Assembly (NCBI GenBank): GCA_014860005.1
Contig: JACZKP010000093.1
Coordinates: 1-14,121, forward strand
DNA length: 14,121 bases
Origin: Verrucomicrobiota bacterium
Lineage (GTDB): Bacteria; Verrucomicrobiota; Verrucomicrobiae; Limisphaerales; UBA11358
Direction of reading: 5' to 3'
The notes beneath the pieces were generated by a model. The model saw nothing but the letters and a program-made list of their open reading frames with translations. It did no database searches and was not told the origin of the DNA. Below, piece by piece: positions 1 to 14,048 of the stretch (positions within the stretch are counted from its first letter, which is position 1; each line of letters begins with the position of its first letter). The translations under genes were made by a program, and so were the position numbers.

Positions 1-1335
1 CCGTTCACCAACCTGACCGTCAAGAGCAGGGTCCGTTACCAGAGCGACGAACGCATCCTGCACGATTTCTTTGAAAGCGAATACCGCCAGAACCCGCAGC
101 CAAACACCTTCGTTGAAATCAACCGGGTCTGGAGCAATTTCAGTCTCGACCTCCACGCCGAACCGCGCGTCAACGATTTTTTTGAAACGGTCGAGCGTTT
201 GCCGGAGGTCAAACTCACCGGCTTCCGTCAGCAACTCGGCGAGACGCCGCTGTATTACGACAGTGAAAGCTCCGCGGGCTATTACCGCCGCCGGTTTGCC
301 GACACCAACGGCCCGCCCATCGGGCTGGACTATTCCGCCAGCCGCGCGGACACGTATCATCAACTCACCTTGCCCCAGACCTATTTCGGCTGGCTGAACG
401 TGACCCCGCGCGCGGGCGGACGCTTCACCTACTACAGCGAAGCCACCGGTGCGGGCGGCACGAACAACGAGGTGTATCGCGGCGTGTTCAACACCGGGGC
501 GGAAGTTTCCTTCAAAGCCGCGCGCCTCTGGCCGGGGGCAACCAATCGGTTCCTGGCCATGGACGGCTTGCGGCACATTGTCCAGCCGTCCGTCAATTAC
601 GTCTTTGTGCCCCGGCCCGACGACCGCCCGCGCGATCTGCCACAGTTCGATTACGAACTGCCCAGCCTACGCCTGTTGCCCCTCGAGTTCACCGACTACA
701 ACTCGATTGATTCCATTGACAGCCAGAACGTGCTGCGCTTCGGGTTGCGGAACAAGCTCCAGACCAAGCGGGCTGGGCAAGTCGAGAATCTGCTGTATTG
801 GGATTTGTACACGGACTGGCGACTGAATCCGCGAGGGGAGCAGACCACACTTGCCGACCTCTATTCCGACCTGGTGCTCCGGCCCCAAACCTGGCTTACG
901 CTGGAATCACAGACGCGTTACGACGTTGAACGCGGCACGTGCCAGTTGGCCTTCCACAACCTGACGTTCCAGCCGACCGAGCGGTGGAGCTGGAGTTTCG
1001 GCCATTGGTATCTCCGCAATGATTTCTCCGATACGCCCGACGCGCTGGGCCAGGGCAACAATCTCTTCTCCAGCATCCTGTTCTTCCGGCTGAACGAGAA
1101 CTGGGGCGCGCGCACGGCGCATTATTTTGAAGCCCGCGACGGGCGCATGGAAGAACAGTCCTACACCATCTACCGCGATTTGCGCAGTTGGACGGCGGGC
1201 TTCACCCTGCGGCTGCGCGATCATCGCGAGAGTTCAGACGACATCGCGTTCGCCTTCACCTTCTCGCTCAAAGCCGCTCCGAAATACCGCGTCGGCCAGG
1301 ATGCGGTGCGGTCATCGCAGTTGCTCGGTTACTAA
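1..1335 (+). CDS. lptD: LPS-assembly protein LptD (C-terminal part, 5' truncated by window edge)
   Basis: The frame is open from base 1 and ends at TAA 1333-1335, so about 444 C-terminal residues are present. The product resembles the LptD beta-barrel that inserts lipopolysaccharide into the outer leaflet of the outer membrane. Support: the segment DERILHDFFE followed by alternating aromatic/polar strands, the LptD_C-like stretch GLRHIVQPSVNYVFVP, and the SQNVLRFGLRNKLQTK block, which matches the typical 'Q..RYGL.N.L' barrel strand. The first ATG-type start inside the window (199) is not the true start, because the recognisable sequence continues upstream of it without a stop. The C-terminus does not end in a canonical aromatic residue after a strand (it ends LLGY). 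The gene converges on the phosphoesterase gene with only 12 bases between the two stops and no clear terminator. The family call is good; the N-terminal OstA domain lies outside the window. Confidence 0.82.
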   Translation, partial: PFTNLTVKSRVRYQSDERILHDFFESEYRQNPQPNTFVEINRVWSNFSLDLHAEPRVNDFFETVERLPEVKLTGFRQQLGETPLYYDSESSAGYYRRRFADTNGPPIGLDYSASRADTYHQLTLPQTYFGWLNVTPRAGGRFTYYSEATGAGGTNNEVYRGVFNTGAEVSFKAARLWPGATNRFLAMDGLRHIVQPSVNYVFVPRPDDRPRDLPQFDYELPSLRLLPLEFTDYNSIDSIDSQNVLRFGLRNKLQTKRAGQVENLLYWDLYTDWRLNPRGEQTTLADLYSDLVLRPQTWLTLESQTRYDVERGTCQLAFHNLTFQPTERWSWSFGHWYLRNDFSDTPDALGQGNNLFSSILFFRLNENWGARTAHYFEARDGRMEEQSYTIYRDLRSWTAGFTLRLRDHRESSDDIAFAFTFSLKAAPKYRVGQDAVRSSQLLGY

Positions 1336-1347
1336 GTGCCAGGCCGT

Positions 1348-2325
1348 TCAGCGCGGCAGGCGATGGCATTCAAAGCGCGCCGCTTCGGGCGCCGCTGCGT
1401 CAAGCGTCGTTGTCAAATACCCCCCATCCTTGAGCAGTTCAATGCCGGCGAGCGACGGACACAAGCGGACGCGGAACGGCCGCCACAAGCGGGCATCGTT
1501 CAGCGCGGTGCTCATCCGGCGGATGGAATGACCGAGGAAACCAATCACCGGCATGCCCGCCAGGAGTTTGCTGGTCTTGAGAATGAGATTCGAGTGCAGG
1601 TGGCCAATGATGGTATGTTCGATCTGTGCCAGTTTCCCGCGAACCAGCTCCTCCCGCCACAGGAACGGCAGCGCGGTCGGATCGTGACAAAACAGCAGTA
1701 CTCGCTGGTGCGGTTGCAGCGCGGCAAAGGCGGTTCGTATGTCGGTAAAGTGTTCCGCGCGGAGTTGTTCCCAGGCGGGGCGTTCCTCGGGCAGCATGTC
1801 GCGCTCGAACACCGGCAGGGCCACGAGCGAGGAAACCACCGACAGCAAAACATAATTGCCCAGTTCGAGTTTCCAGAAGGGCCGCAAATCGAGTTCTTTG
1901 ACGCAGCGCTGCCAACTGTGCAGCCGCATGCCGCCCCGCGTGCCGAGCAGGCGGAGTTTCCCGAGTTCATGGTCGCCGAAATTTGTGAGCAACCTGTCGC
2001 CAAATCGCCCGCGCAGTTTATCGAGACATTCGCGGGCGCTCTGCATCGCCGCTTCATCGCTCAAGCCGATGGCGGCGGTGTTGCAGGAGTAATCGCCGTT
2101 GGCGATGACGTAATCAACTGGACCAACTTCAGCCAGGAAACGGTCGAGTTGGCCGTTCTGTTGCAACGGGTGGCGCAGCCAGATGTAATGGCGGTAAGCG
2201 CGCAGTGCGCGGCGCAGGAGAGGATTGCTGATGGCTCGGATTTCGTAGTCGTCACCCACGGCCTGTTCTGCGGCGCCGGCGTAGTGGATGTCGCTCAGTA
2301 TGGCAAGCGTGAAGCAGCGGCTCAT
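1348..2325 (-). CDS. Calcineurin-like metallophosphoesterase
   Basis: A 325-residue protein with the ordered metal-binding motifs of the calcineurin-like phosphoesterase fold: SDIHYAG (D12, H14), ANGDY (D78), FGDHE (D118, H119, E120), a lone CHD (H214) and GHLHSN (H242, H244). The third motif normally reads GNH(D/E); here Asn is replaced by Asp, which can still bind metal but is unusual. No signal peptide or membrane segment is seen, so a cytoplasmic enzyme is likely. Substrate cannot be deduced: members act on nucleotides, phosphoproteins, cyclic nucleotides and UDP-diacylglucosamine. It starts 10 bases after the stop of the kinase gene on the same strand, so the two are probably co-transcribed, and a phosphatase next to a histidine kinase may be functional. 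The spacing and a start at the beginning of the fold support ATG at 2325; the Shine-Dalgarno sequence is poor. Confidence 0.85.
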   Translation of the reverse strand: MSRCFTLAILSDIHYAGAAEQAVGDDYEIRAISNPLLRRALRAYRHYIWLRHPLQQNGQLDRFLAEVGPVDYVIANGDYSCNTAAIGLSDEAAMQSARECLDKLRGRFGDRLLTNFGDHELGKLRLLGTRGGMRLHSWQRCVKELDLRPFWKLELGNYVLLSVVSSLVALPVFERDMLPEERPAWEQLRAEHFTDIRTAFAALQPHQRVLLFCHDPTALPFLWREELVRGKLAQIEHTIIGHLHSNLILKTSKLLAGMPVIGFLGHSIRRMSTALNDARLWRPFRVRLCPSLAGIELLKDGGYLTTTLDAAAPEAARFECHRLPR

Positions 2326-2335
2326 CGCTCGCGGA

Positions 2336-3439
2336 TCAGTGCGGGCGGGTGCCCGCCGGCAGCAGAACGATAAAGGAGGTGCCTTGATTCAACCGACTCT
2401 GCACGCTGATGTCGCCGTGATGTTCCTGGAGAATCCGCCGGGTGATTGGGAGTCCGAGGCCGGTGCCATGGTTCTTGGTGGTGAAGAATGGCTCGAACAG
2501 GCGCTCGAGGTTTTCCGCCGCCACGCCGATGCCGGTGTCGGTGATCGTAACGCGCAGCTGCGGTTGACCAGCCGTCCCGGCGGTGGTGGCGACGGTTGCG
2601 GAGGCTGCAACAATTTCGGTATCCACGGTTAGCGAACCTTTTGCCTCCATGGCTTCGACCGCGTTGAGGAACAGGTTCACGAAGGCCTGCTCCAATTGGT
2701 AGTTGTCGCCCTGGATGGCATCGGGCGCGGCATTGAACTTCCGTTGCAGGTTGATCTGCTTGTTCGCCAGTTGATGCTGCACCATGCGCAGGGAGTGATT
2801 GAGAATCTCATGCAGTCGCAACGCGGAGAATGTCGGCTGGGCCGGCGCGCCAAACTTGAGCAACTGACTGACCATGGCATCAATGCGGCGCATCTCGCGC
2901 CGGACCACGTCCGTCAGTTCCGAGTCCTGACTTTTTTCGATTAGCAGGTCCACGAAGGTTTTGACGGCCACGAGCGCATTCTTGATTTCATGCCCCATGC
3001 TGGCCGACAACGTGCCGATGCTGGCCAGCCGGTCGAGCCGGCGCATGTTTTCCTCCAACTGCCGGGCCACGCTGATGTCATTCAACACAACCACCACCTG
3101 CCATGAACCGGCGGTCGCTACTGGCACGGCACTGACGTGAAGGGCGGTAGAGCTGCCGGATCGCGGCGGCAAGCTCACGCTTTGATCGGTGAGTGCGGCT
3201 TTGGTGGAAACCACCTTGCGGATGATTGCCTGGAGCGGCTCCGGCAGGAGGGAAAGCGAACCTTGCGCGACGCTGCCGGCCGGCAACTGAAGCAGGTGGG
3301 TGGCTTCGGGCGTGCAGGCCGTGAGGCAACCATGTGAATCCACAACCAGTACGCCGCACGCAAGACAATCATGCAGGGCGCTGGTTAGGTTCAGCGCCTC
3401 GTGGCTTGAGGTTTTTTGACTATGACTAAGGACTGACAC
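2336..3439 (-). CDS. Soluble PAS-type sensor histidine kinase
   Basis: A 367-residue kinase without membrane segments. Residues about 20-125 look like a PAS-type sensor (CGVLVVDSHG near the start, VVVLNDISVARQLEE at the end), followed by a coiled linker and a HisKA domain with MGHEIKNALVAVKTF (phosphoacceptor H150). The HATPase is complete: N-box NLFLNAVEA (N259), G1 DTGIGV (D301), F-box FEPFFTTK (315-322), G2 GTGLGLPI (325-332). An Ala/Thr-rich insert (about 278-292) lies before G1. It is therefore expected to autophosphorylate in the cytoplasm in response to an intracellular cue. No receiver gene lies next to it. The start chosen is GTG at 3439, since no ATG lies near the beginning of the domain; no Shine-Dalgarno sequence is evident. 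The next gene in the operon is the phosphoesterase. Its H-box region is strikingly like that of the hybrid protein at 10493-11758, so the two may share a partner. Confidence 0.88.
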   Translation of the reverse strand: MSVLSHSQKTSSHEALNLTSALHDCLACGVLVVDSHGCLTACTPEATHLLQLPAGSVAQGSLSLLPEPLQAIIRKVVSTKAALTDQSVSLPPRSGSSTALHVSAVPVATAGSWQVVVVLNDISVARQLEENMRRLDRLASIGTLSASMGHEIKNALVAVKTFVDLLIEKSQDSELTDVVRREMRRIDAMVSQLLKFGAPAQPTFSALRLHEILNHSLRMVQHQLANKQINLQRKFNAAPDAIQGDNYQLEQAFVNLFLNAVEAMEAKGSLTVDTEIVAASATVATTAGTAGQPQLRVTITDTGIGVAAENLERLFEPFFTTKNHGTGLGLPITRRILQEHHGDISVQSRLNQGTSFIVLLPAGTRPH

Positions 3440-3782
3440 AGTTTATAGGCAATCAAAACAACATTTGGCCAGGACAGAAACATCTTTACCTGTGAGTTTT
3501 CAGGCAATCGTGTTTCGCGAACGGAAGCAACATAATTATCGAGCAGTTCACCGAAGCCAGCATATCAACGTAACCCGGTGGCCTGGCCTGACTGCGTGCT
3601 ACCGCGAATCCCAATCCAATGGCAGAGCATGGCTGCGTCCAGACTCTGGCTGGATTCTGCGCAAGTCTGTACCACTTTTGGGCAACTGCAAATCTTAACA
3701 GTTGCCAGAAAAAGAAGTAAACCGCAGTGGCACACGCATCTTTGTGCAATTGGCATCGGGGTAGCTCGAATATTGGTCAATC
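3440..3782. promoter_or_regulatory. Divergent intergenic region, 343 nt
   Basis: This gap separates the minus-strand kinase operon from the plus-strand six-gene run and must hold both promoters. It is visibly less GC-rich than its flanks. I find no convincing reading frame: the short ones have no recognisable content or start context. A weak plus-strand promoter guess is TTGTGC (3742-3747) with TCGAAT (3766-3771), 18 bases apart; this is only a resemblance. The one clear structure is the palindrome listed separately at 3681-3706. Confidence 0.5.
3681..3706. promoter_or_regulatory. 8-bp perfect inverted repeat, possible operator
   Basis: GGCAACTG (3681-3688) and CAGTTGCC (3699-3706) are exact reverse complements around a 10-nt AT-rich spacer. 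It is followed by an A-rich run on the plus strand and has no T-run on either strand, so it is not a standard intrinsic terminator. Its position, about 75 bases before the hydrolase start and about 240 before the kinase start, suits a transcription-factor site for the plus-strand operon. No regulator can be named. Confidence 0.4.
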
Positions 3783-4649
3783 ATGAAGGCTTCACAGGAA
3801 ACAGTTTGCCTCCGCTCCCAAGGGGACGAGCTTGCGGGCGTATTGTTTCTGCCCGAAAGCGAGCGGCCAGCCCCGGTTTTGATCATCTGTCATGGTGCCG
3901 GTGAGTTTAAGGAGAATTATTTTGAGTTGTGCAAAGTGCTTGCTGGCCGCGGAGTGGCGACCCTTGCCATTGATATGCATGGACACGGTGCCAGTGCCGG
4001 GGAGCGGTACTACGTAAATATGCGTCAGTGGGTGGGGGATATCCGGGCTGCCATTGATTTCCTCCTGACCCATCCAAGAATTGATGGCAAGCGAATCGGC
4101 GCCTTCGGACTCTCGTCAGGCGGGACGGCGATTCTTGAGGCGGCAATGATTGAACCGCGCTTGAAAGCTTTGGTGGCGCTCGACGCCACGGTGCGAGACA
4201 CGCTCCCATGGGTCATGGCCGTGTTTCTCAAGCTCTTGGTAGTCTGCGGTCGGATCAAAAAGCTGTTGACCCGGAACGATCTAAGAGTGCCGCTGGCGAA
4301 ACTGTCGAAGGGGTTTAAAATGGCGGCGGATCCCGCCGTGGAACAGCGGTTACAAGCCGATCTGCGATTGCGGGCGGCGTACATGGACTTCCCGTTGCCG
4401 GGAGCCGAACAGGCGTTCTTCGTGGATACCCTGAGCCGCGTCTCTCAAATCTCGGCGCCCACGTTGGTGTTGTGGGGTGAGGAGGACAAATTCGACCCGC
4501 CGGAAACCGGGCGGTTGTTGTACGAGGCGCTCGCCTGCCGGAAGCAACTGCACATCATCCGGGGCAACGGCCACGTCGGCCATCTTGATCGCAATCGGGA
4601 TATAGTGTTTACGTTGACGGCTGACTGGGTTTTAAGGACTCTGGTCTAA
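3783..4649 (+). CDS. Alpha/beta hydrolase (serine esterase/thioesterase-like)
   Basis: A 288-residue alpha/beta-hydrolase-fold protein without a signal peptide, so cytoplasmic. The oxyanion-hole motif is HGAG (37-40), the nucleophile elbow is GLSSG with S111, the acid is D235 in WGEEDKFDP, and the histidine is H264 or H267 in GNGHVGH. Residues about 140-205 form a helical cap over the active site. The family includes esterases, thioesterases and acyl-hydrolases; substrate cannot be read from sequence. It is the first gene of the plus-strand run, and its stop lies 4 bases before the possible GTG start of the next gene, which implies co-transcription. In view of the downstream methyltransferase related to fatty-acid methyl ester synthases, an ester or acyl-thioester substrate is an attractive but unproven idea. 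ATG 3783 is the only start at the beginning of the fold; the Shine-Dalgarno sequence is weak. Confidence 0.88.
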   Translation: MKASQETVCLRSQGDELAGVLFLPESERPAPVLIICHGAGEFKENYFELCKVLAGRGVATLAIDMHGHGASAGERYYVNMRQWVGDIRAAIDFLLTHPRIDGKRIGAFGLSSGGTAILEAAMIEPRLKALVALDATVRDTLPWVMAVFLKLLVVCGRIKKLLTRNDLRVPLAKLSKGFKMAADPAVEQRLQADLRLRAAYMDFPLPGAEQAFFVDTLSRVSQISAPTLVLWGEEDKFDPPETGRLLYEALACRKQLHIIRGNGHVGHLDRNRDIVFTLTADWVLRTLV

Positions 4650-4653
4650 CAAG

Positions 4654-5847
4654 GTGCGGCACATTCACACTGCCGCGCGCGTCAACATGGCAATCAGAGT
4701 TATCGAGGCACAAGCGGCCCAGGCTCTCGGCGCAAGAGAGAAATGGGAACTGCTGTCACCATTTCTCCGGCAACACGGCCGCGAGGCGCTGGCCTATGCG
4801 ACCCTGCAGACGGGCTTGGAATACTTCATAGACGAGTGCGGTTACATTGCCTACACGACCGTGTATCACCCGGTGTTCGCCCGCAAACCCAAGCGCATCG
4901 CCTTCTCCGATCCACTCTGTGCGCCCCAGGATCGTTCCAGGATTGTGCGGAACTTTCTCGCGGCAGATTCCCGGGCCGTGTTCGCGTGTGTGTCCGAGTC
5001 TTGTGCGGAAGTGCTGCGCGACTTGAGGTTCAAGGTGAATTGCATCGGCTACGAATCGGAGTTGCCCATCCAGTCTTACAACACCAAGGGCAATTGGAAG
5101 GAACTGGACCTCATCAAACGCGCGCGAAACGAGGCCCGTCGCCAAGGGATTGTTGTTCGGGAGGAAAAGATCGAGACGGTCAACCGGGACGAGTTGGCAG
5201 CCGTTTCGTCCCGGTGGATAGGCAACAAAAAGGTGAATGACCGGGAAATCTGGATTTACGCCAGACGGCCGGTTTTCGAATATGAGGATGATGTCCGCAA
5301 ATTCGTGGCCTATGATCGCGAGGGACGTGTGGCGGGCTTTGCCTTTTACGATCCCATGTATCGCGAGGGGCGGGTCCGCGGTTACTCGGCCAACATTCTG
5401 CGTTGCGACGAGAGCCGCTTCGGTCGCCTGGCCACGGCACTCCACATGGAGGCGATCGAAAGATTCAGGCCCGAGGGCATGGAAGTGTTGAACCTGAACC
5501 TGGCGCCGTTTGTGAAACTGGAGAGCGGGCGCTTCAATGATGACTTCGGGGCGAGACTTTTCTTTAAGTTGAGCGCCCGCTATGGCAATGACATCTACAA
5601 TTTTCAGGGCCTGGCCTTTCACAAGTCGAAATACCGCGGACAGGAAAAAAATCTCTACTTTGCCTCGAACAGCTTCTGGCCGGCGAACGACATTTATTTG
5701 GCGTTCCTCTCCGCGGACATCACGAGGAATTACTTCGGCACGCTTGGACAATTGCTGAAGGGCATGGTAGCTGCTAAAAAGAGTCCCAAGCTTGCTCTTC
5801 CAGCCAGCCATCAGAATACGGGTGCTCCGGACCGGCGCTCCTCGTAA
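4654..5847 (+). CDS. DUF2156 / phosphatidylglycerol lysyltransferase C-terminal-like (GNAT-fold) protein
   Basis: A protein of 397 residues from GTG 4654, or 386 from ATG 4687; neither start has a good ribosome site, and the ATG is equally plausible. It resembles the soluble catalytic part of MprF/LysX-type aminoacyl-phosphatidylglycerol synthases (DUF2156), two GNAT-like halves: an N-terminal half with YFIDECGYIAYTTV and IAFSDPLCAP, a linker helix LDLIKRARNEARRQG (151-165), and a C-terminal half with VAGFAFYDP, NLAPFVKLE and the end motif FHKSKYRG (322-329). The MprF membrane flippase is absent, so it is a stand-alone enzyme. Known relatives move aminoacyl or acyl groups to lipids; this one's donor and acceptor are unknown. 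Its place between a hydrolase and a porin gene points to a lipid or cell-envelope reaction. The C-terminal 25 residues are low in complexity and probably disordered. Confidence 0.78.
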   Translation: MRHIHTAARVNMAIRVIEAQAAQALGAREKWELLSPFLRQHGREALAYATLQTGLEYFIDECGYIAYTTVYHPVFARKPKRIAFSDPLCAPQDRSRIVRNFLAADSRAVFACVSESCAEVLRDLRFKVNCIGYESELPIQSYNTKGNWKELDLIKRARNEARRQGIVVREEKIETVNRDELAAVSSRWIGNKKVNDREIWIYARRPVFEYEDDVRKFVAYDREGRVAGFAFYDPMYREGRVRGYSANILRCDESRFGRLATALHMEAIERFRPEGMEVLNLNLAPFVKLESGRFNDDFGARLFFKLSARYGNDIYNFQGLAFHKSKYRGQEKNLYFASNSFWPANDIYLAFLSADITRNYFGTLGQLLKGMVAAKKSPKLALPASHQNTGAPDRRSS

Positions 5848-5858
5848 AGCCGTAAAGC
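5843..5858 (+). repeat. Tandem 8-bp duplication over a stop codon
   Basis: CGTAAAGC occurs twice in tandem; the first copy contains the TAA stop of the DUF2156 gene. It looks like a small slippage duplication in the 20-nt spacer before the porin gene and has no evident role. Confidence 0.6.
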
Positions 5859-5867
5859 CGTTCACCA

Positions 5868-7331
5868 ATGCGCGAAACTATGAAAACGAAATGCACGCGG
5901 AGAGTCACGGCGGCCATCGGGCTGATCGTGCTCATCATGTTTGGACCTAGCGTCCTTGCCGGAGATGCAATGGCGCCACCCAAATCCGGCTTCATGCGCT
6001 TCCTGGAACAGGATTATCTGCTGGGGAGTTGGGGCGGTCTTCGCACCTCGCTTCAGGAGAAAGGGGTGGATTTCGAGTTTGTTTATTTCGCCGCCGTGCC
6101 CATGAATCTGGACGGTGGCCTCAAACGAGGCTCGGTTTACGAGGGTGGGTTGCTGATGATGCTCGATTTGTATTCGGACAAATTGGTCGGATACGAGGGC
6201 GGCCAGTTCCATGTGGGCGGGCTTTCCATTCACAACGGGCCTGAATTCTCTGAAAACTATGTCGGCGATCTCAACAAAGTCAGCATGCTGGATTTTCCAG
6301 ACACCCTACAACTCTGGGAACTTTGGTATGAGCAGAAGTTTTTCAACAACCGGGTGGCGCTGAAATTAGGGCAGCTTGCCATAGACCGCGATTTTATTCT
6401 GCCTGAATATTACAATTCCCTTGCCGGCATCAGCCTGCTGAACCAAACCTTTTTTTACCCCACGATGGCGTTCAACGTGTATGACCAGCCGTTCTTCCCG
6501 GTGGGTCACCACGCGCTGGCTTCCACTCCGTACGGCGCCCCTGGAGCGCGATTGCGGCTGGACCCCTGCTCCCACGCTTACTTTCAAATCGGCGTTTACG
6601 ATGGCAACCCGGACCGCAAAGACGGAGGGACGCGTGTCAAACTCAGCGGTGACGAAGGCGCTTTGATCTATGCCGAACTGACACTGAAGATCAATCAAAG
6701 TGAAAGCGCCGTGCGGCCCCCCGGCAACCTCAAGCTCGGAGGTTATTATCACACCGATGATTTCTACGACATGTATCAGGGGTCCTTCGTGGCCTTCGAC
6801 AATTATGTCGCTGCCAGTGGTTTTCCCCTGCCGCCTATTTCGGGAGGCACCGCCCGGAAACGCGACGGCAATTATGGAATTTATTTTCTCGCCGACCAAA
6901 TGCTCTGGCGCGAAGCAGGTAAAGATGATCCAGCCCAACAGGGATTGACCGGGTTCTTCCGGGCAGCGTTCGCTCCAAAGGACCGCAATCTCGCACAGTT
7001 TGGCGTTGACGGTGGAGTGGTTTACAAAGGACTGATACCCACCCGCGACTGGGACACGCTTGCGCTGGGGGTGTCTTATTTGGAAATCAGTGACGATTTG
7101 CGGAAAGCCCAGCGAGATATCAACGCCCTCATCACCGGCTTCGGTGGGCCGGCACCTTTCTCCAAGATTGCGGATCATGAAACAGTCGTTGAACTCAGCT
7201 ATAAGGCGCAACTGACCGCGTGGTGGACGGTGCAGCCGAGCATTCAACGGGTGTTCCATCCGGGCGGCCGGATTTTTGACGACACGCCCGACGCCTGGGC
7301 GTTCATTGTTCAGACTTCGTTGCGGTTCTGA
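5868..7331 (+). CDS. OprB-like carbohydrate-selective porin, outer membrane
   Basis: A protein of 487 residues from ATG 5868, or 483 from ATG 5880. The second start gives a cleaner signal peptide (MKTKCTRR, then a hydrophobic stretch ending PSVLA, cut before GDAM), so I favour 5880. The mature part has the OprB hallmarks: the opening LLGSWGGLRTSLQEKGV, the middle LKLGQLAIDRDF and LNQTFFYPT, the YGAPGARLRL segment, GVYDGNP, and a terminal strand ending in phenylalanine (SLRF), the usual BAM recognition signal. OprB-family porins form 16-stranded barrels that let sugars or other small solutes cross the outer membrane. No sugar-uptake genes lie nearby, so a passage role for a substrate or product of the neighbouring enzymes is possible. 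The gene starts 20 bases after the DUF2156 stop and is followed by a 312-nt gap, the only sizeable break in the run. Confidence 0.87.
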   Translation: MRETMKTKCTRRVTAAIGLIVLIMFGPSVLAGDAMAPPKSGFMRFLEQDYLLGSWGGLRTSLQEKGVDFEFVYFAAVPMNLDGGLKRGSVYEGGLLMMLDLYSDKLVGYEGGQFHVGGLSIHNGPEFSENYVGDLNKVSMLDFPDTLQLWELWYEQKFFNNRVALKLGQLAIDRDFILPEYYNSLAGISLLNQTFFYPTMAFNVYDQPFFPVGHHALASTPYGAPGARLRLDPCSHAYFQIGVYDGNPDRKDGGTRVKLSGDEGALIYAELTLKINQSESAVRPPGNLKLGGYYHTDDFYDMYQGSFVAFDNYVAASGFPLPPISGGTARKRDGNYGIYFLADQMLWREAGKDDPAQQGLTGFFRAAFAPKDRNLAQFGVDGGVVYKGLIPTRDWDTLALGVSYLEISDDLRKAQRDINALITGFGGPAPFSKIADHETVVELSYKAQLTAWWTVQPSIQRVFHPGGRIFDDTPDAWAFIVQTSLRF

Positions 7332-7643
7332 TCCCATGCCAAAGTGGATGTTCTTTGGAGTTCCTGGTGCATCCGCCTTCGGGTCGGATGGAAGTTGAGG
7401 CACGTGGCGGGTGGCTTGCCGCGGCAGGATGGAAACCTTCCGCTAACGGAGTCACCGCTACCATAGCATGGTGCTGGCTTGCTTGGTTGCCGGCTTATTG
7501 GTGGGGCATTGCAGATACTGCTGCGTTGTGGGCGCGGATAATGTTATGGGACATGACGTTCGCTTCGGGTGGCCTGCGGATTGGCGGTTGGCGCAGAGAT
7601 TGCCGCAAACCTGTGGCCGGGTCTGAGTGGTGGATTTGATCAA
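7332..7643 (+). other. 312-nt spacer between the porin and methyltransferase genes
   Basis: The gap holds a TTCG-loop hairpin (7370-7390) and little else that I can support. A 94-codon frame (7355-7639) has 12 tryptophans and no family resemblance. A short frame at 7468-7626 starts with a signal-like MVLACLVAGLLVG but has no further support. The methyltransferase frame can be read back to GTG 7569, but recognisable sequence starts only after ATG 7644. An internal promoter for the three signalling genes may lie here; no convincing boxes are seen. Confidence 0.45.
7370..7390 (+). promoter_or_regulatory. Stable TTCG-tetraloop hairpin after the porin gene
   Basis: CATCCGCC (7370-7377) pairs with GG plus CGGATG (7382-7390, one bulged T) around the loop TTCG. 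C(UUCG)G is an exceptionally stable RNA tetraloop. It lies 38 bases after the porin stop and is not followed by a T-run, so it fits an mRNA-stabilising or processing hairpin, or an imperfect terminator, better than a classical terminator. Confidence 0.5.
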
Positions 7644-9074
7644 ATGGGCACGTTGAATTCCGAAATCAAAGACAGTTCAGTTGTCTGTCAAACCAGCCAG
7701 GGGGTGGAGTTTCGCGCCTCGCTGCTGAGGTTGACCCGCTTTCTGGCGGTTTTTGAAATTTACAATCCCGACCTTGTCCTGCGCGCTTCCGAGGTGCTCA
7801 AGGATTTCCGAATCGTGTTTCAGAACCGGACCGTTTATTCGGGCCGGGCGGTGATTCGCAATCAACTCAACGCCGGTTTGGGGGATGTCTGCGAAGTCAC
7901 TTTGAACGAAGGCTCGTGGATGGATGTGGCATTCACCCCGGAAATGATCGCCAATGGCGGACTGCGCAAACAGTTCGTCGAGTTCCTCGAGGAATGGCAG
8001 AAGCTTTACCGGGTGCGGGCAGATTACAAGGTGATCATTGCGGACATGCAGAGTTTCTTCGCGGATCTGCGGCTCTCGTTGGATCAAGTGGAACTTGGGA
8101 TCAAGGCTTCGCCGACCGACAGTCAGCTCCAACTGGAGCAGGACGCAGCGGAGGAATTGAGCCATCCGATCATTCCCTGCGTCAATGTGCTGTTCGAGCA
8201 GTTTGAAGAAATTGCCGGGAAGCTTGACGTGGACCTGCGGCCGGCTCACCAGAATTATATGCGGCGGCAGATGCATCCGCTGGTGCTGTGCGCACCGTTT
8301 GCCAACCGCACCTTTCACAAGCCGCTGGGCTACGCGGGTGACTATGAAATGGTGAACATGATCGCGCGAAATCAGCACGAGGGAGGGTCGCTCTTCGCCA
8401 AGATCGTCAACACCTGGTTTCTCCGGCAGGCGCCGGCGGAGGCGCACCGCAACCGCATCCAATACTTGGAGGAAACGCTCGCCACGGAGACGCTTCGCGT
8501 CTGTCGGCGGCATCGTCCAGCCCGCATTTTTAATCTGGCCTGCGGTCCGGCCCAGGAAATCCAGGCATTCCTTGCGAAGAATCCGCTTTGCGAACACACC
8601 CAACTTACGCTGCTGGATTTTAACGAAGAAACGTTGCGGTATCTCCGTAACATTCTGGATGACCTCAAGCGACGGCATTCGCGCGGGACGCCAATTGAAT
8701 ACATCAAACGATCTGTTCACCACATCATCAAGGAAAGCAGCCGGACCAAGGATCGCGCGACCGAGCCGCAGTATGATTTCGTTTACTGCGCCGGGCTGTT
8801 TGATTATCTGTCGAACCAGGTTTGCCAGCGTTTGATGAACATCATGTACGACTCGGTGGCGCCGGGAGGGTTACTGGTGGCCACAAACGTCGAGCCGCGC
8901 AATCCGTTGCGCAATGGGATGGAGCATTTGCTGGATTGGCATTTGATTTACCGGACGGCTGCGCAGATGCGCAGTTTGGCGCCCGCCCGTGCCCGGGCGG
9001 AGGATTGTTGTGTGCGGGCGGAGGCCACCGGAGTGAACGTGTTCCTGGAGGTTCGCAAACCGGATCATGCCTGA
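7644..9074 (+). CDS. SAM-dependent methyltransferase, 3-hydroxypalmitate methyl ester synthase (PhcB)-like, with N-terminal PilZ-like domain
   Basis: From ATG 7644 the product has 476 residues (a GTG at 7569 would add 25 that look unconserved). Residues about 10-95 are beta-rich and PilZ-like, but lack the RxxxR and D/NxSxxG residues needed for c-di-GMP. A helical middle (about 110-220) leads to LGYAGDYEM (228-236), a signature I associate with this family, then a Rossmann methyltransferase: motif I NLACGPAQE (297-305), acidic LLDFN (D325), post-II FVYCAGLFDYL (379-389) and APGG (406-409). Related proteins are named after the Ralstonia extracellular factor 3-OH-PAME, made by PhcB by methylating a 3-hydroxy fatty acid. 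The substrate here is inferred only. It overlaps the following kinase by 8 bases, so the two are translationally coupled. It may be a signal-producing enzyme of a quorum-sensing unit. Confidence 0.8.
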   Translation: MGTLNSEIKDSSVVCQTSQGVEFRASLLRLTRFLAVFEIYNPDLVLRASEVLKDFRIVFQNRTVYSGRAVIRNQLNAGLGDVCEVTLNEGSWMDVAFTPEMIANGGLRKQFVEFLEEWQKLYRVRADYKVIIADMQSFFADLRLSLDQVELGIKASPTDSQLQLEQDAAEELSHPIIPCVNVLFEQFEEIAGKLDVDLRPAHQNYMRRQMHPLVLCAPFANRTFHKPLGYAGDYEMVNMIARNQHEGGSLFAKIVNTWFLRQAPAEAHRNRIQYLEETLATETLRVCRRHRPARIFNLACGPAQEIQAFLAKNPLCEHTQLTLLDFNEETLRYLRNILDDLKRRHSRGTPIEYIKRSVHHIIKESSRTKDRATEPQYDFVYCAGLFDYLSNQVCQRLMNIMYDSVAPGGLLVATNVEPRNPLRNGMEHLLDWHLIYRTAAQMRSLAPARARAEDCCVRAEATGVNVFLEVRKPDHA

Positions 9075-10476
9075 AGTCCTGACAACACGCTCACCGGAGT
9101 TCCAAGCCGCCTTTCTGGCCAATGAACGGCAGGAACGGGTCAACACAGGCAAGGTGGCCTCGGCCCTGGTGTTCTTCCTCATGCCCTTCGGATGGACGCT
9201 CGACTTCTTCCTGTACGAGGAATCCGTGGGCACGTTTTTGGTGTTGCGATTGATTTGCTCCGCGCTGGCCGCCGTTCTGTTCTATCTGCACACCACGGAG
9301 TTCGGGAGGCAAAACTTCCGGTTGCTAGGGCTGCCGATTGCCCTGCTGCCGGCGGTCTTCATCGCCGTGATGATTTATATGAAGGAGGGGCCGGCCTCGC
9401 CTTATTACGCGGGACTAAACCTGATCCTTCTGGCGGTGAGCGTCGTGGTTCATTGGAGCACGCGCGAATCGCTGCTCGCCGTCCTGGGCGTGCTCCTCAT
9501 CTACATGATGGTTTGCGTCCTTCACCGGTACAATCATCCGGGCGAGCCGGTGGGTGGCATCTTTTATAGCAACCTGATTTTCATGATCGAGACCGGGATC
9601 ATCGTGGTGGTGGGCAACTACTTCTACAACCGCTTGCGCTTTCGGGAATTCTCAGCGCGTTACGAATTGGCCCAGAACAAACAGGCCCTCGAACAGACCA
9701 ACCAAAAGCTCGATACCCAAAACAAGGAACTGGCCGACACCCTTCAGAAACTCACCGAGGCCGAATCCCAACTTGTGCAATCCGAGAAGATGGCCTCCCT
9801 TGGCCGCATGAGCGCAGGCATCATTCACGAGATCAACAACCCGTTGAACTTTGCCACGACCGGCCTCTTCACGCTCAAGAAGAAGGGTAAACACCTGCCC
9901 GCGGAACAACGCGGAGAATACGAGGAGATTATCCGCGACGTGGGCGATGGCATCACCCGCGTCCGGGACATCGTCTCGGACTTGCGCATGTTCACACACC
10001 CCGACACGGACAGTCACGATGAGGTGGAAGTATCCGAAGTCATTGCCACGGCTGTGCGCTTCATGAGCAACGAATTGGCGGACAAGGTCCGACTCGAACA
10101 GAACCTGCCCGCGAACCTGACGATCCGGGGCAACAAGAACAAGCTCATCCATGTGGCGGTGAATTTGATTCAGAACTCGCTGGATTCGCTGCAGGCCAAA
10201 ACGTTCGACGGCGAACAGCCGACGATCTGGATCGAAGGCCGCGAGGAGCCAGCCGGCAGTTACCTGATTGTGCGGGACAACGGAATCGGCATTGAGAGCC
10301 AGCACTTGGACAAAATCTTCGATCCCTTCTTCACCACCAAGGACGTGGGCCAGGGGATGGGATTAGGACTGAGTATATGTTATCGCATCCTGGTAGAGAG
10401 CCGCGGGAAGATTTCAGTGCGCACCGAACCGGGGAAGTTCTGCGAGTTTACGCTGGAGTTCCCGCCGCAAGCGTGA
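9067..10476 (+). CDS. Six-TM membrane sensor histidine kinase, PhcS/LqsS/CqsS-like
   Basis: A 469-residue membrane kinase. Six hydrophobic segments lie at about 31-50, 57-76, 86-105, 113-130, 134-153 and 166-188, with short loops and no large periplasmic domain. A coiled coil (about 195-245) follows, then HisKA with SAGIIHEINNPLNF (H254). The HATPase is intact: N-box NLIQNSLDS (N370), G1 DNGIGI (404-409), F-box FDPFFTTKD (418-426), G2 GQGMGLGLS (428-436). A six-TM input domain is the layout of quorum-sensing kinases that detect hydrophobic signals within the membrane (LqsS, CqsS, PhcS), which fits the methyltransferase gene just upstream. ATG 9067 overlaps that gene's stop; GGAGG at 9047-9051 is rather far away, so coupling probably drives translation. 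There is no attached receiver; the likely partner is encoded 16 bases downstream. Confidence 0.9.
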   Translation: MPEVLTTRSPEFQAAFLANERQERVNTGKVASALVFFLMPFGWTLDFFLYEESVGTFLVLRLICSALAAVLFYLHTTEFGRQNFRLLGLPIALLPAVFIAVMIYMKEGPASPYYAGLNLILLAVSVVVHWSTRESLLAVLGVLLIYMMVCVLHRYNHPGEPVGGIFYSNLIFMIETGIIVVVGNYFYNRLRFREFSARYELAQNKQALEQTNQKLDTQNKELADTLQKLTEAESQLVQSEKMASLGRMSAGIIHEINNPLNFATTGLFTLKKKGKHLPAEQRGEYEEIIRDVGDGITRVRDIVSDLRMFTHPDTDSHDEVEVSEVIATAVRFMSNELADKVRLEQNLPANLTIRGNKNKLIHVAVNLIQNSLDSLQAKTFDGEQPTIWIEGREEPAGSYLIVRDNGIGIESQHLDKIFDPFFTTKDVGQGMGLGLSICYRILVESRGKISVRTEPGKFCEFTLEFPPQA

Positions 10477-10492
10477 GAAAGAAAACGACGCA

Positions 10493-11758
10493 ATGATCCC
10501 GGCAATGGAATCGCAGTACGATTACAAACAGTTCGCCATCCTTTACGTGGACGACGAGGAAAACTCGCTCAAGGCGTTTGCCCGCGCCTTCGCTGACGAG
10601 TTTCGGATTTTTACGGCGGCCAATGCCCAGGACGGATTGAGACTGCTGGAGCAGCACCGCCAGGAAATCGGCCTGCTCATGACCGACCAGCGCATGCCGG
10701 GTGAGAAGGGCGTGTGGTTGCTCGAACGCGCGCGGCAATTGGAGCCGCGCATGATTCGCATCCTGGCCACCGCCTACTCCGACATGGACGCGGCCATCTC
10801 CGCGGTAAACACCGGCGCCATCTACAAGTACGTCACCAAACCGTGGGATCCCGAAGAACTCGAACAAACCCTGAAGCGGGGCCTCGAATTCTTCATGGTG
10901 CAACGCGAGCGTGACCAGTTGCTGTTCGAGAAGATGTCGGTCTTGCACAACATGATGATCGCCGACCGCCTCGTCAGTCTGGGGTTGCTGGCCGCCGGCC
11001 TGAGTCACCACATCCGTAATTCACTGGTGGCCGTCAAAACCTTCCTGGACCTGGCCCCGGCCAAGATGGCGGAGGAGAAAGTGGATTTGAACGGACTGCG
11101 GAATCCGGACTTCTGGAAGGACTACTATCAGAATGTTCAAGGCCAGGTGGAGAAGATCAACAATCTGCTCAAGGACCTTTGGGTGGCGTCCGAAGGCGCT
11201 TCCTCCCAGTTTGCCGACCGCGTCAAGTTGCACGAAGTCATCGCCGGGGTGATTGCGGAATTGAAGCCGGAATTTGATGCCAGACACATCGAGGTCGAAA
11301 GTCAAATTTCTGACGCCTTGCCGGAACTGAGCGTGGACCGCCCGAAATTCCAACGGCTGTTCGAGTTGTTGTTAAAGGACGAACTCGCCAGTCTGCCGGC
11401 AGGCACGCGGATAACTCTCACGGCGGAATTGAACGACAGCGGCCCAAAGCCGGAGATCCAGATGCAGATCAGCGACAACGGCCCAGGTTTGCCCGAGGAA
11501 GCCGTGCGCGTGCTGTTCGATCCGTTTGTTGTTCGCAGCGATACGCCTGCCGAGTATGGCATTCATTTAATGGCCTGTTTCTTTATTGTTTATCATCATG
11601 GTGGCAAGATCGAAGCCCGCAGCCAGAAGGGCATCGGCACCACGTTTACGCTCCGATTGCCGCTTAACCCGGATCGCGCCGTGGTGGAGCAAAACCAGGG
11701 CCTGCTGCAAAAATCACTCCTGAATCAGACTTTTTGGGAGAAGTTGATTGCCTCCTGA
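10493..11758 (+). CDS. Response regulator with C-terminal histidine kinase-like domain (PhcR/PhcQ-like), degenerate ATPase
   Basis: A 421-residue protein with reversed order: receiver first, kinase-like part last. The receiver (about 14-130) is complete: D20/D21, phosphoacceptor D65 in MTDQRMPG, T93 and K116 in YVTKPW. A short coil leads to a HisKA-like segment LSHHIRNSLVAVKTF (H172, with the usual Glu replaced by H173). The ATPase-like part is worn: the N-box reads ELLLKDELAS with no Asn, G1 is kept as DNGPGLP (328-334), the F-box is FDPFVVRSD, and the G2 region has no GxGxG. ATP hydrolysis is doubtful; the domain may be a phosphotransfer or protein-binding output. Receivers with a kinase-like output are the hallmark of PhcR in Ralstonia. 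It starts 16 bases after the six-TM kinase and probably receives phosphate from it. Start ATG 10493 or 10505. No DNA-binding domain, so the final target lies elsewhere. Confidence 0.88.
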   Translation: MIPAMESQYDYKQFAILYVDDEENSLKAFARAFADEFRIFTAANAQDGLRLLEQHRQEIGLLMTDQRMPGEKGVWLLERARQLEPRMIRILATAYSDMDAAISAVNTGAIYKYVTKPWDPEELEQTLKRGLEFFMVQRERDQLLFEKMSVLHNMMIADRLVSLGLLAAGLSHHIRNSLVAVKTFLDLAPAKMAEEKVDLNGLRNPDFWKDYYQNVQGQVEKINNLLKDLWVASEGASSQFADRVKLHEVIAGVIAELKPEFDARHIEVESQISDALPELSVDRPKFQRLFELLLKDELASLPAGTRITLTAELNDSGPKPEIQMQISDNGPGLPEEAVRVLFDPFVVRSDTPAEYGIHLMACFFIVYHHGGKIEARSQKGIGTTFTLRLPLNPDRAVVEQNQGLLQKSLLNQTFWEKLIAS

Positions 11759-11790: not shown

Positions 11791-11969
11791 TCCGCCTGAT
11801 AGCGGGTATGGATTCGAGTGGAGACAGACGCGGCGGCCAGGACACCTGCAAAAACGGGCCGGCGACGAGCGGGCCATCATCGGTACCCGTCGGTTGAGAA
11901 GGTTCTTCATCCTCACTGCGAAGTGGGGATACCAGCAGCCAGCGCGGTTAAGTCGGCCCGCTGCCACAA
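11791..11969 (+). repeat. 179-bp dispersed direct repeat, copy A
   Basis: It matches 13101-13279 without gaps, with 15 differences over 179 bases (about 92% identity), both copies in the same orientation. The minus strand of both copies can be read as protein in the same frame, but the differences fall 3/7/5 by codon position (third/second/first), so there is no third-position excess and it is unlikely to be a conserved coding unit. GCGGGCC (11869-11875) and GGCCCGC (11955-11961) could pair and fold the unit as RNA or DNA. Confidence 0.9.
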
Positions 11970-13100: not shown

Positions 13101-13279
13101 ACCGACTGATAGCGGGTATGGATGCGAGTGGCGACAGACGCTGCGGCCAGGACACATGCAAAAACGGGCCTGCGATGAGCGGGCCATCATCGGTTCCCGT
13201 CGGTTGAGAAGGTGCTTCATCCTCGCTGCAAAGTGGGGATACCAGCAGCCAGCGTGGTAAAGTCCGCCCGCTGCCACAA
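13101..13279 (+). repeat. 179-bp dispersed direct repeat, copy B
   Basis: Second copy of the unit at 11791-11969 (offset 1310, same orientation, 15 mismatches, no gaps). It abuts the possible hsdS remnant at its left side and lies 49 bases from the transposase stop at its right. The two copies flank the stand-alone kinase gene. Confidence 0.9.
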
Positions 13280-13328: not shown

Positions 13329-14048
13329 TTACGTTACATAATGTCGCGCCAGCTTTTTGTCGGCGTCTTGGCGGGTGAACCGCCATTCAATCTGGCAACC
13401 CGCCGCATTGCGCCGTTGTTCCCATGCCTCCAGTTCGGCATGCAAGCGGTTCTCACTGCCGATCCGGCGTCCGAGGCACTGCCGATCCAGGATGCCAATT
13501 TCAATCTCCGCCATGTTGAGCCAACTGGCATGCTTGGGCGTGTAGTGAAACTCAATCCGAGCCAGGAACTGCCGGGCCACTTCCACACCGAGCACTTGTT
13601 CAAACGAGCCGCGGAAATGCGTGTTGAGATTATCCAACACCAAGTGGATCGTCCGCGCGGTGGCATAGGCCCCGTTGACCAGGCTCTGGACAAACCCGAC
13701 AAAATCCGGATTGGTTCGCCGCCGCGTGACCGTGACCGCTCGCCGTCCGCCCTTGGGTTGGACCGCCACAAACAGATTGCGGGTGCCGGCGCGCCGATAC
13801 TCATAGTCTTCCCGGGCGAGGCGCCCGGGGCTGGCCGCCAAGGGTGGTCGGGTTTGTTCCAAGAGTTGTTTGCTCTTTTCATCCAAGCAAATCACAGGTT
13901 CCTGCGCATCATACGGCTTGGCATAGAGGGCCAACAGGTTGTACATCCGCTCTCGATACTCGGCGGTTATCCGGCCGATGCACCAGCAGTTCTCATTTTG
14001 ATTAAGTGCGGGATGGTTACAAGCGGGGGTGAAGGTGGATTGAGGCAA
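13329..14048 (-). CDS. IS630-family DDE transposase, C-terminal two-thirds (N-terminus lost or beyond the window)
   Basis: The product has the IS630 catalytic core: PVICLDEKS (D56), HLVLDNLNTH (D139), then KHASWLNMAEIEIG (E181), and ends FTRQDADKKLARHYVT, the usual close of this group. The DDE triad is intact. The N-terminal helix-turn-helix is not recognisable: before CWCIG the frame reads NHPALNQNEN, where relatives have a longer linker, suggesting a small deletion or decay. The listed start is TTG 14048, but the frame stays open to the window edge at 14120, so the true start may be outside. IS630 elements use a DDE enzyme and insert at TA. Full-length relatives are roughly 340 residues, against 239 here. 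It lies next to repeat copy B and marks this end of the window as mobile. Confidence 0.85.
   Translation of the reverse strand: MPQSTFTPACNHPALNQNENCWCIGRITAEYRERMYNLLALYAKPYDAQEPVICLDEKSKQLLEQTRPPLAASPGRLAREDYEYRRAGTRNLFVAVQPKGGRRAVTVTRRRTNPDFVGFVQSLVNGAYATARTIHLVLDNLNTHFRGSFEQVLGVEVARQFLARIEFHYTPKHASWLNMAEIEIGILDRQCLGRRIGSENRLHAELEAWEQRRNAAGCQIEWRFTRQDADKKLARHYVT

Follow-up and report, generated by a model that had tools for sequence, protein, structure and literature searches.

The window, by which we mean the whole 14,121-nucleotide stretch analysed (contig JACZKP010000093.1 of assembly GCA_014860005.1, Verrucomicrobiota bacterium), carries three tightly packed genes encoding a methyltransferase, a sensor histidine kinase with six transmembrane (TM) segments and a receiver protein, which probably form a cell-to-cell signalling unit of the Phc type, its third member being a PhcQ-like pseudokinase that acts through contacts with a partner (Table 1). 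The arrangement resembles the Phc system of Ralstonia and Cupriavidus (phcBSRQ plus phcA) in its order of methyltransferase, six-TM kinase and receiver, in the full-length homology of the first two proteins, and in the grouping of the third protein's receiver with PhcQ. Unlike Phc, the window has no separate PhcR gene bearing an intact kinase, its PhcQ counterpart bears a full, apparently dead kinase domain, and a hydrolase–transferase–porin trio lies upstream. To our knowledge, methyl ester signalling of this class has been described in Ralstonia, Cupriavidus and related bacteria only; a search of the open-licence literature, which is not proof of absence, found no publication linking phcB or the signal to Verrucomicrobiota. 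Automatic annotation labels already exist on such methyltransferases, and many listed homologues bear the name '3-hydroxypalmitic acid methyl ester biosynthesis protein', which is a label and not a test.

Table 1. Features of the window discussed in the text.
Feature	Position	Strand	Details
PhcB-type SAM-dependent methyltransferase, 476 aa	7644..9074	+	ATG 7644, stop 9074
PhcS-type sensor histidine kinase, 469 aa	9067..10476	+	ATG 9067, stop 10476
PhcQ-type receiver protein, 421 aa	10493..11758	+	ATG 10493, stop 11758; probable true start 10505
Alpha/beta hydrolase (Hydrolase_4), first of upstream trio	3783..4649	+	Pfam
MprF-type C-terminal domain protein (LPG_synthase_C), upstream trio	4654..5847	+	Pfam
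OprB-family porin, upstream trio	5868..7331	+	Pfam
SAM, S-adenosylmethionine; aa, amino acids.

The genes are tightly clustered, with B first, then S and the receiver gene. As a first-pass annotation of this DNA had described, the methyltransferase and kinase genes overlap by 8 bases (9067–9074), and 16 bases separate the kinase gene from the ATG at 10493. Because 71 of the 74 relatives in the alignment keep Met5 of the third protein, with Met1 occurring only in the window, the third gene more likely begins at ATG 10505, which would widen the gap to 28 bases. Across the signalling genes, the DNA is 84% identical to that of locus L125, with ratios of nonsynonymous to synonymous substitution (dN/dS) of 0.114 for the methyltransferase, 0.065 for the kinase and 0.066 for the receiver protein; window positions 1346–7331 and 7511–11758 align to L125 at 83% and 84%, in unchanged order. 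The Verrucomicrobiota origin proposed at first pass is supported by the closest organism-named methyltransferase among the matches listed (P0004, 85%, from a Verrucomicrobiae metagenome-assembled genome) and by the titles of the 80 best-matching loci, the majority of which name Verrucomicrobiota.

The methyltransferase belongs to the PhcB family

The methyltransferase is built from a small N-terminal β domain (strands within residues 11–87), a helical middle and a C-terminal Rossmann-type methyltransferase domain; its AlphaFold2 (AF2) model has a predicted local distance difference test score (pLDDT) of 87.4. In a colinear alignment of 16 rows, the window protein is 36–38% identical to six Burkholderiales PhcB-type rows, with KPLGYAGDY and YCAGLFDYL invariant throughout; the motifs LGYAGDYEM and NLACGPAQE recorded in the first pass are both present. 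The N-terminal domain is common to proteobacterial PhcB (profile match of 25 vs 15 sequences, expectation value (E) 3.4e-24; reversed control, 0.61). A tree of 53 methyltransferases places ten proteobacterial rows in one clade (support 100/100) within non-proteobacterial rows, next to three proteins from the Verrucomicrobiota draw (99/98) and with the window protein among Verrucomicrobiota rows, and two distant outgroups fall outside the family. Profile search and phylogeny thus uphold the PhcB homology claimed earlier, which extends over the full length of the protein, as judged from the 36–38% alignment and the single family in the tree. From 120 listed homologues, 9 entered alignment A1 and 24 alignment A2; a second listing contributed 5/120 and 15/120.

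Since the outgroup branches exceed five changes per column, the root of this tree and any claim of origin are weak, and it is on this weak root that proteobacterial PhcB may nest inside a mainly Verrucomicrobiota family. Three loci of the Verrucomicrobiota draw (L106, L108 and L109), whose methyltransferases are nearest to proteobacterial PhcB, have three consecutive receiver genes. Pfam applied to the N-terminal domain of six methyltransferases (positions 7644–8000 in the window) matched nothing in five and gave two chance-level matches in the sixth (L057); a PilZ-like nature, considered for this domain, is unsupported by that scan. NCBIfam did not match the methyltransferase, nor did a sequence search of PDB return any match, and in PADLOC the methyltransferase domain weakly matches mad2 (29.6 bits), which we read as general methyltransferase similarity.

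The sensor kinase is of PhcS type

The kinase matches HisKA and HATPase_c in Pfam and has six hydrophobic segments within residues 30–182, confirming the six-TM histidine kinase of the first-pass annotation. His254 (HEINNPLNF) is the probable phosphoacceptor, and the protein has N, G1 and G2 boxes; it thereby combines the six TM segments and the phosphoacceptor His of a PhcS-type kinase. It is 33% identical, over residues 28–466, to a C. taiwanensis protein named 'SENSOR HISTIDINE KINASE, repressor of PhcA' and 32.5% identical to a Ralstonia insidiosa homologue. Ralstonia PhcS is reported to autophosphorylate at H230 (PMC11960443), and His254 would be the corresponding residue.

The sensor motif SPYYAGLNL, at residue 111, recurs in 52 of 95 longer PhcS-type proteins (S proteins), and most of the remainder have variants of it. 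Profiles of the sensor domain, built from 91 and 46 sequences, agree at E 1.4e-38, with reversed controls reaching 0.077 and 0.068; together with the 33% identity, this bears out the proposed relation to PhcS. Both sides were cut on the pattern YYx[GA], to which 46 of the 120 Burkholderiales S proteins listed conform, so in this match the motif does not count as separate support. The Pfam model MASE8 matched one of three PhcS proteins (E 0.82) and left the window kinase unmatched; precomputed annotation of PhcS-type proteins gives PF20968, an updated form of this model. Six loci (L004, L010, L024, L046, L103 and L112) encode enlarged kinases of about 890–1005 amino acids with two kinase boxes. 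We rejected the idea that such ~890-residue kinases are PhcS–PhcR fusions, since all six read as a first kinase (SHELRTPL) followed by a PhcS-type kinase (HEINNP[LI]N); it is also opposed by the inserted receivers found in 68 S proteins, which separate from PhcR in trees.

The third protein is likely a PhcQ counterpart with an apparently dead kinase domain

The third protein consists of a receiver (Asp65), an ERDQL linker and a histidine-kinase-like domain. Pfam confirmed the receiver with a C-terminal kinase-like domain seen at first pass (Response_reg and HATPase_c), placed HisKA below the cut-off (23.2 vs 26.9 bits) and found no DNA-binding family in this protein. Like PhcQ, it is thus a receiver protein without a DNA-binding domain, its C-terminal domain being larger and different. 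Six Pseudomonadota loci (L116–L121) encode PhcB and PhcS followed by PhcR (receiver plus kinase) and PhcQ (receiver plus about 190 residues); in the plasmid locus L001, the third gene encodes a lone receiver. In a careful tree of 39 of the 185 receivers, the window and 14 relatives lie on the same side of a branch as PhcQ (100/99) and the receivers of hybrid kinases stand apart from this side; a larger, quick tree agrees on the PhcQ grouping (88). The linker ERDxLxREKxxVL is common to the third protein and PhcQ, and in five of the six Pseudomonadota loci the whole protein obtains more phmmer bits against PhcQ than against PhcR. Because of the receiver phylogeny and the shared linker, sequence comparison indicates that the third protein is likely the counterpart of PhcQ and not of PhcR. 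The first-pass annotation had instead likened it to PhcR, the phc operon's receiver-kinase, a suggestion disfavoured by the receiver tree, the linker and the absence of catalytic residues, although the approximately unbiased test (p-AU) does not formally reject a PhcR grouping (P = 0.219).

The kinase-like domain was examined in an alignment of 74 receiver proteins longer than 340 residues, with seven proteobacterial loci excluded. In the receiver, Asp65, Thr93 and Lys116 are the same in all. His172 is found in 44/74 relatives and is followed by Glu or Asp in 1/74; the N-box Asn occurs in 0/74, five having a gap there, and the column mapping was checked against S (NLIQNSLDS opposite ELLLKDELA). 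The G1 motif is largely retained, and the G2 box of the window reads GIHL. The six proteobacterial PhcR proteins with a kinase domain retain His-Glu, the N-box Asn and GxG. Given that no relative has the N-box Asn and only one the His-Glu/Asp pair, the domain looks catalytically dead, and the third protein would be a receiver-pseudokinase. The strongest constraint falls on its dimerization and histidine phosphotransfer (DHp)-like part (dN/dS 0.035).

In profile matches, the C-terminal half reaches 100% with S kinases and 96.9% with the PhcQ C-terminus, the latter mostly via the linker. The kinase-domain matches argue for kinase ancestry of the C-terminal domain in the window; for the PhcQ C-terminus, such ancestry is only a suggestion. 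The best solved-structure match of the AF2 model, a weak one (pLDDT 69.9), is the receiver-kinase LvrB (8vc9). LvrB-type hybrid response regulators of Leptospira have the same domain order, receiver then kinase; the likeness is known here from structure and profile match alone, and the LvrB model of NCBIfam matches the third protein far under its cut-off (62.7 vs 500 bits).

Gene order and distribution

We compared 106 loci: the window, the plasmid locus L001, 80 loci (L004–L083) that are the best of at least 569 confirmed relatives of the window methyltransferase and hence lean to the window's kin, 16 from an even draw of Verrucomicrobiota (L100–L115), the six from Pseudomonadota, and two (L122 and L123) from the phylum of genome G002, probably FCPU426. 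The plasmid search returned 70 records, of which one covered at least 80% of the query and three were examined. Two of these three (L002 and L003), distant methyltransferases without this gene order, were left out, together with short or repeated stretches (L084–L092 and L094–L099) and L124–L125.

A homologous kinase gene lies downstream on the same strand in 105 of the 106 loci, at a distance of 100 bp or less in 104; L017, where it begins 1734 bp after the methyltransferase gene, is the only such case among the 105. The next gene encodes a receiver in 84 of 85 loci, and the contig ends after the kinase in the other 20. The survey of relatives that the first pass had called for thus finds the order kept. 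With the window methyltransferase as query (E 1e-50), the even draw yielded 17 of 288 Verrucomicrobiota genomes (centre included), 16 with the kinase and 15 also with a typical receiver protein. The same query found one of 247 Acidobacteriota genomes, the centre itself, and for this reason binning errors may account for the cases in Acidobacteriota, Binatota and Omnitrophota. The methyltransferase is held by 10 of 12 genomes in the family of G005 (E 1e-50) and, with the Cupriavidus protein P0174 as query, by 9 of the 45 genomes from the phylum of G002 (E 1e-50) and 6 of 398 Pseudomonadota (E 1e-60). Pairwise distances of the cassette parts correlate at r 0.60–0.84 (80/106 loci; best of 500 permutations, 0.191).

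Proposed working and alternatives

By analogy with PhcB, the methyltransferase would transfer a methyl group from SAM to the carboxyl of a (3-hydroxy) fatty acid, releasing a diffusible methyl ester, presumably a 3-hydroxy fatty-acid methyl ester. The six-TM kinase would detect this ester within the membrane, autophosphorylate at His254 and hand the phosphate on to Asp65 in the third protein, both sites being assigned by sequence and the transfer presumed. The receiver-pseudokinase would most likely then act on a partner protein, like PhcQ on PhcA, and not via DNA binding or its own phosphate. PhcQ is reported to bind and stabilise PhcA (PMC13320629) and to contribute more than PhcR (PMC8578825).

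Several observations weigh against this reading. Those on the third protein would suit a diverged PhcR whose kinase domain has decayed, PhcQ having been lost, which we regard as distinctly unlikely. The architecture is PhcR-like; the C-terminal half matches the PhcR kinase domain better than the PhcQ C-terminus (99.5% vs 96.9%); grouping the protein with PhcR is not rejected (p-AU 0.219); and L121 is the exception among the bit scores, with 126 for PhcR vs 122 for PhcQ. PhcR is not one clade in the 39-receiver tree, the PhcQ C-terminus matches neither PhcR (0.1%) nor the S kinase domain (0.0%), and AF2 modelled the third protein poorly. A diverged PhcR is nonetheless opposed by the position of the receiver with PhcQ at 100/99, the PhcQ-type linker and the phmmer scores in five of the six loci L116–L121. 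Other points concern the cassette as a whole: the window has neither a receiver with an intact kinase, as in PhcR, nor any further receiver gene; L113 is without the kinase and L020 without a receiver gene after it; and the L107 receiver falls among hybrid-kinase receivers in the quick tree. An inserted receiver is held by 68 of 105 S proteins, the window kinase being of the short form, so the wiring differs among relatives. Shared descent alone would also yield the correlation of distances. Pfam found no LysR-type family among the ten window open reading frames (ORFs) scanned, with ORF 1–1335 outside the scan; matches to the LysR helix-turn-helix domain number 4–7 in each of four genomes of the G005 family and at least 142 in the Cupriavidus-like G592 (150/248 candidates scored), and PhcA could not be picked out among the LysR proteins of the genomes scanned. 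That the proteins are unrelated lookalikes or their neighbourhood a chance one is extremely improbable: histidine kinases and receivers are, as is generally known, common and often adjacent, but the arrangement kept in 104 of 106 loci, the full-length homology and the profile match vs reversed controls all tell against it.

The nature of the signal leaves room for two further alternatives to a Phc-type unit with a 3-hydroxy fatty-acid methyl ester. In the same module, the methyltransferase might make another methylated compound, to be sensed by the kinase, which we consider rather unlikely. The identity to PhcB-type proteins of just 36–38%, the lipid-type transferase and hydrolase in the upstream trio, the hybrid kinase of different build in many relatives and the looser sensor motif of Burkholderiales, where the pattern fits just 46 of 120 listed S proteins, would all accord with a different compound; against it, the enzyme and the sensor domain are homologous along their whole length, which argues for a similar ligand. 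It is improbable that the module lacks a signal altogether, being a two-component system of the ordinary sort whose kinase and receiver control a methyltransferase that acts, as its output, on a membrane lipid or a partner protein. Two relatives with weak similarity to CheR (E 0.0011 and 0.086), an N-terminal β domain without an assigned role and envelope-related neighbour genes point that way. However, PhcB, with similar neighbours, is reported to be a signal synthase in Ralstonia (PMC8578825), and a Cupriavidus strain carrying orthologues of phcB and phcS is reported to appear to produce a version of the signal (PMC2842291).

If the Phc-type reading is true, the signalling class extends to Verrucomicrobiota, whose records here are mostly metagenome-assembled genomes, and the pseudokinase suggests a possible role for the uncharacterised C-terminus of PhcQ, namely partner binding via a former kinase domain. 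It is possible, if doubtful, that the methyl ester unit is older and wider than Proteobacteria, with a core of B, S and receiver-pseudokinase that Burkholderiales acquired, trimming the pseudokinase to PhcQ. In this tentative scenario, diversification would have taken place mainly in Verrucomicrobiota and FCPU426, pointing to where the Ralstonia virulence switch could have come from.

Upstream trio and flanking sequence

The hydrolase–transferase–porin order precedes the module in 6 of the 106 loci (the window, L005, L009, L029, L060 and L067), at least 4.5 kb of upstream sequence being available in 75. L044, where the contig begins, has transferase and porin, L013 has the transferase alone, and L051 and L102 have trio homologues in other orientation. 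Within the family of G005, the transferase is found in 4 of 12 genomes (E 1e-50), in all four less than 2 kb from the methyltransferase gene and on the same strand. The upstream hydrolase and MprF-type transferase may, we assume, find a parallel in pairs of lpiA/acvB-type aminoacyl-phosphatidylglycerol synthase and hydrolase; the window protein is matched in Pfam only by the C-terminal synthase domain.

At the left end, comparison of window 1–1374 with L125 15196–16568 shows ORF 1–1335, which by eye alone looks LptD-like, inverted relative to the block 1346–11758; the signalling cluster is intact despite this inversion. An Rfam scan gave no match. A 178-base repeat (92% identity) occupies window 11792–11969 and 13102–13279, the first copy beginning 34 bases beyond the right end of the third gene and of the block (11758), and the second preceding an IS630-family transposase gene (13329–14048, minus strand). 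Near this transposase, ORF 12234–12902 matches PF18762 (kinases of polyvalent proteins).

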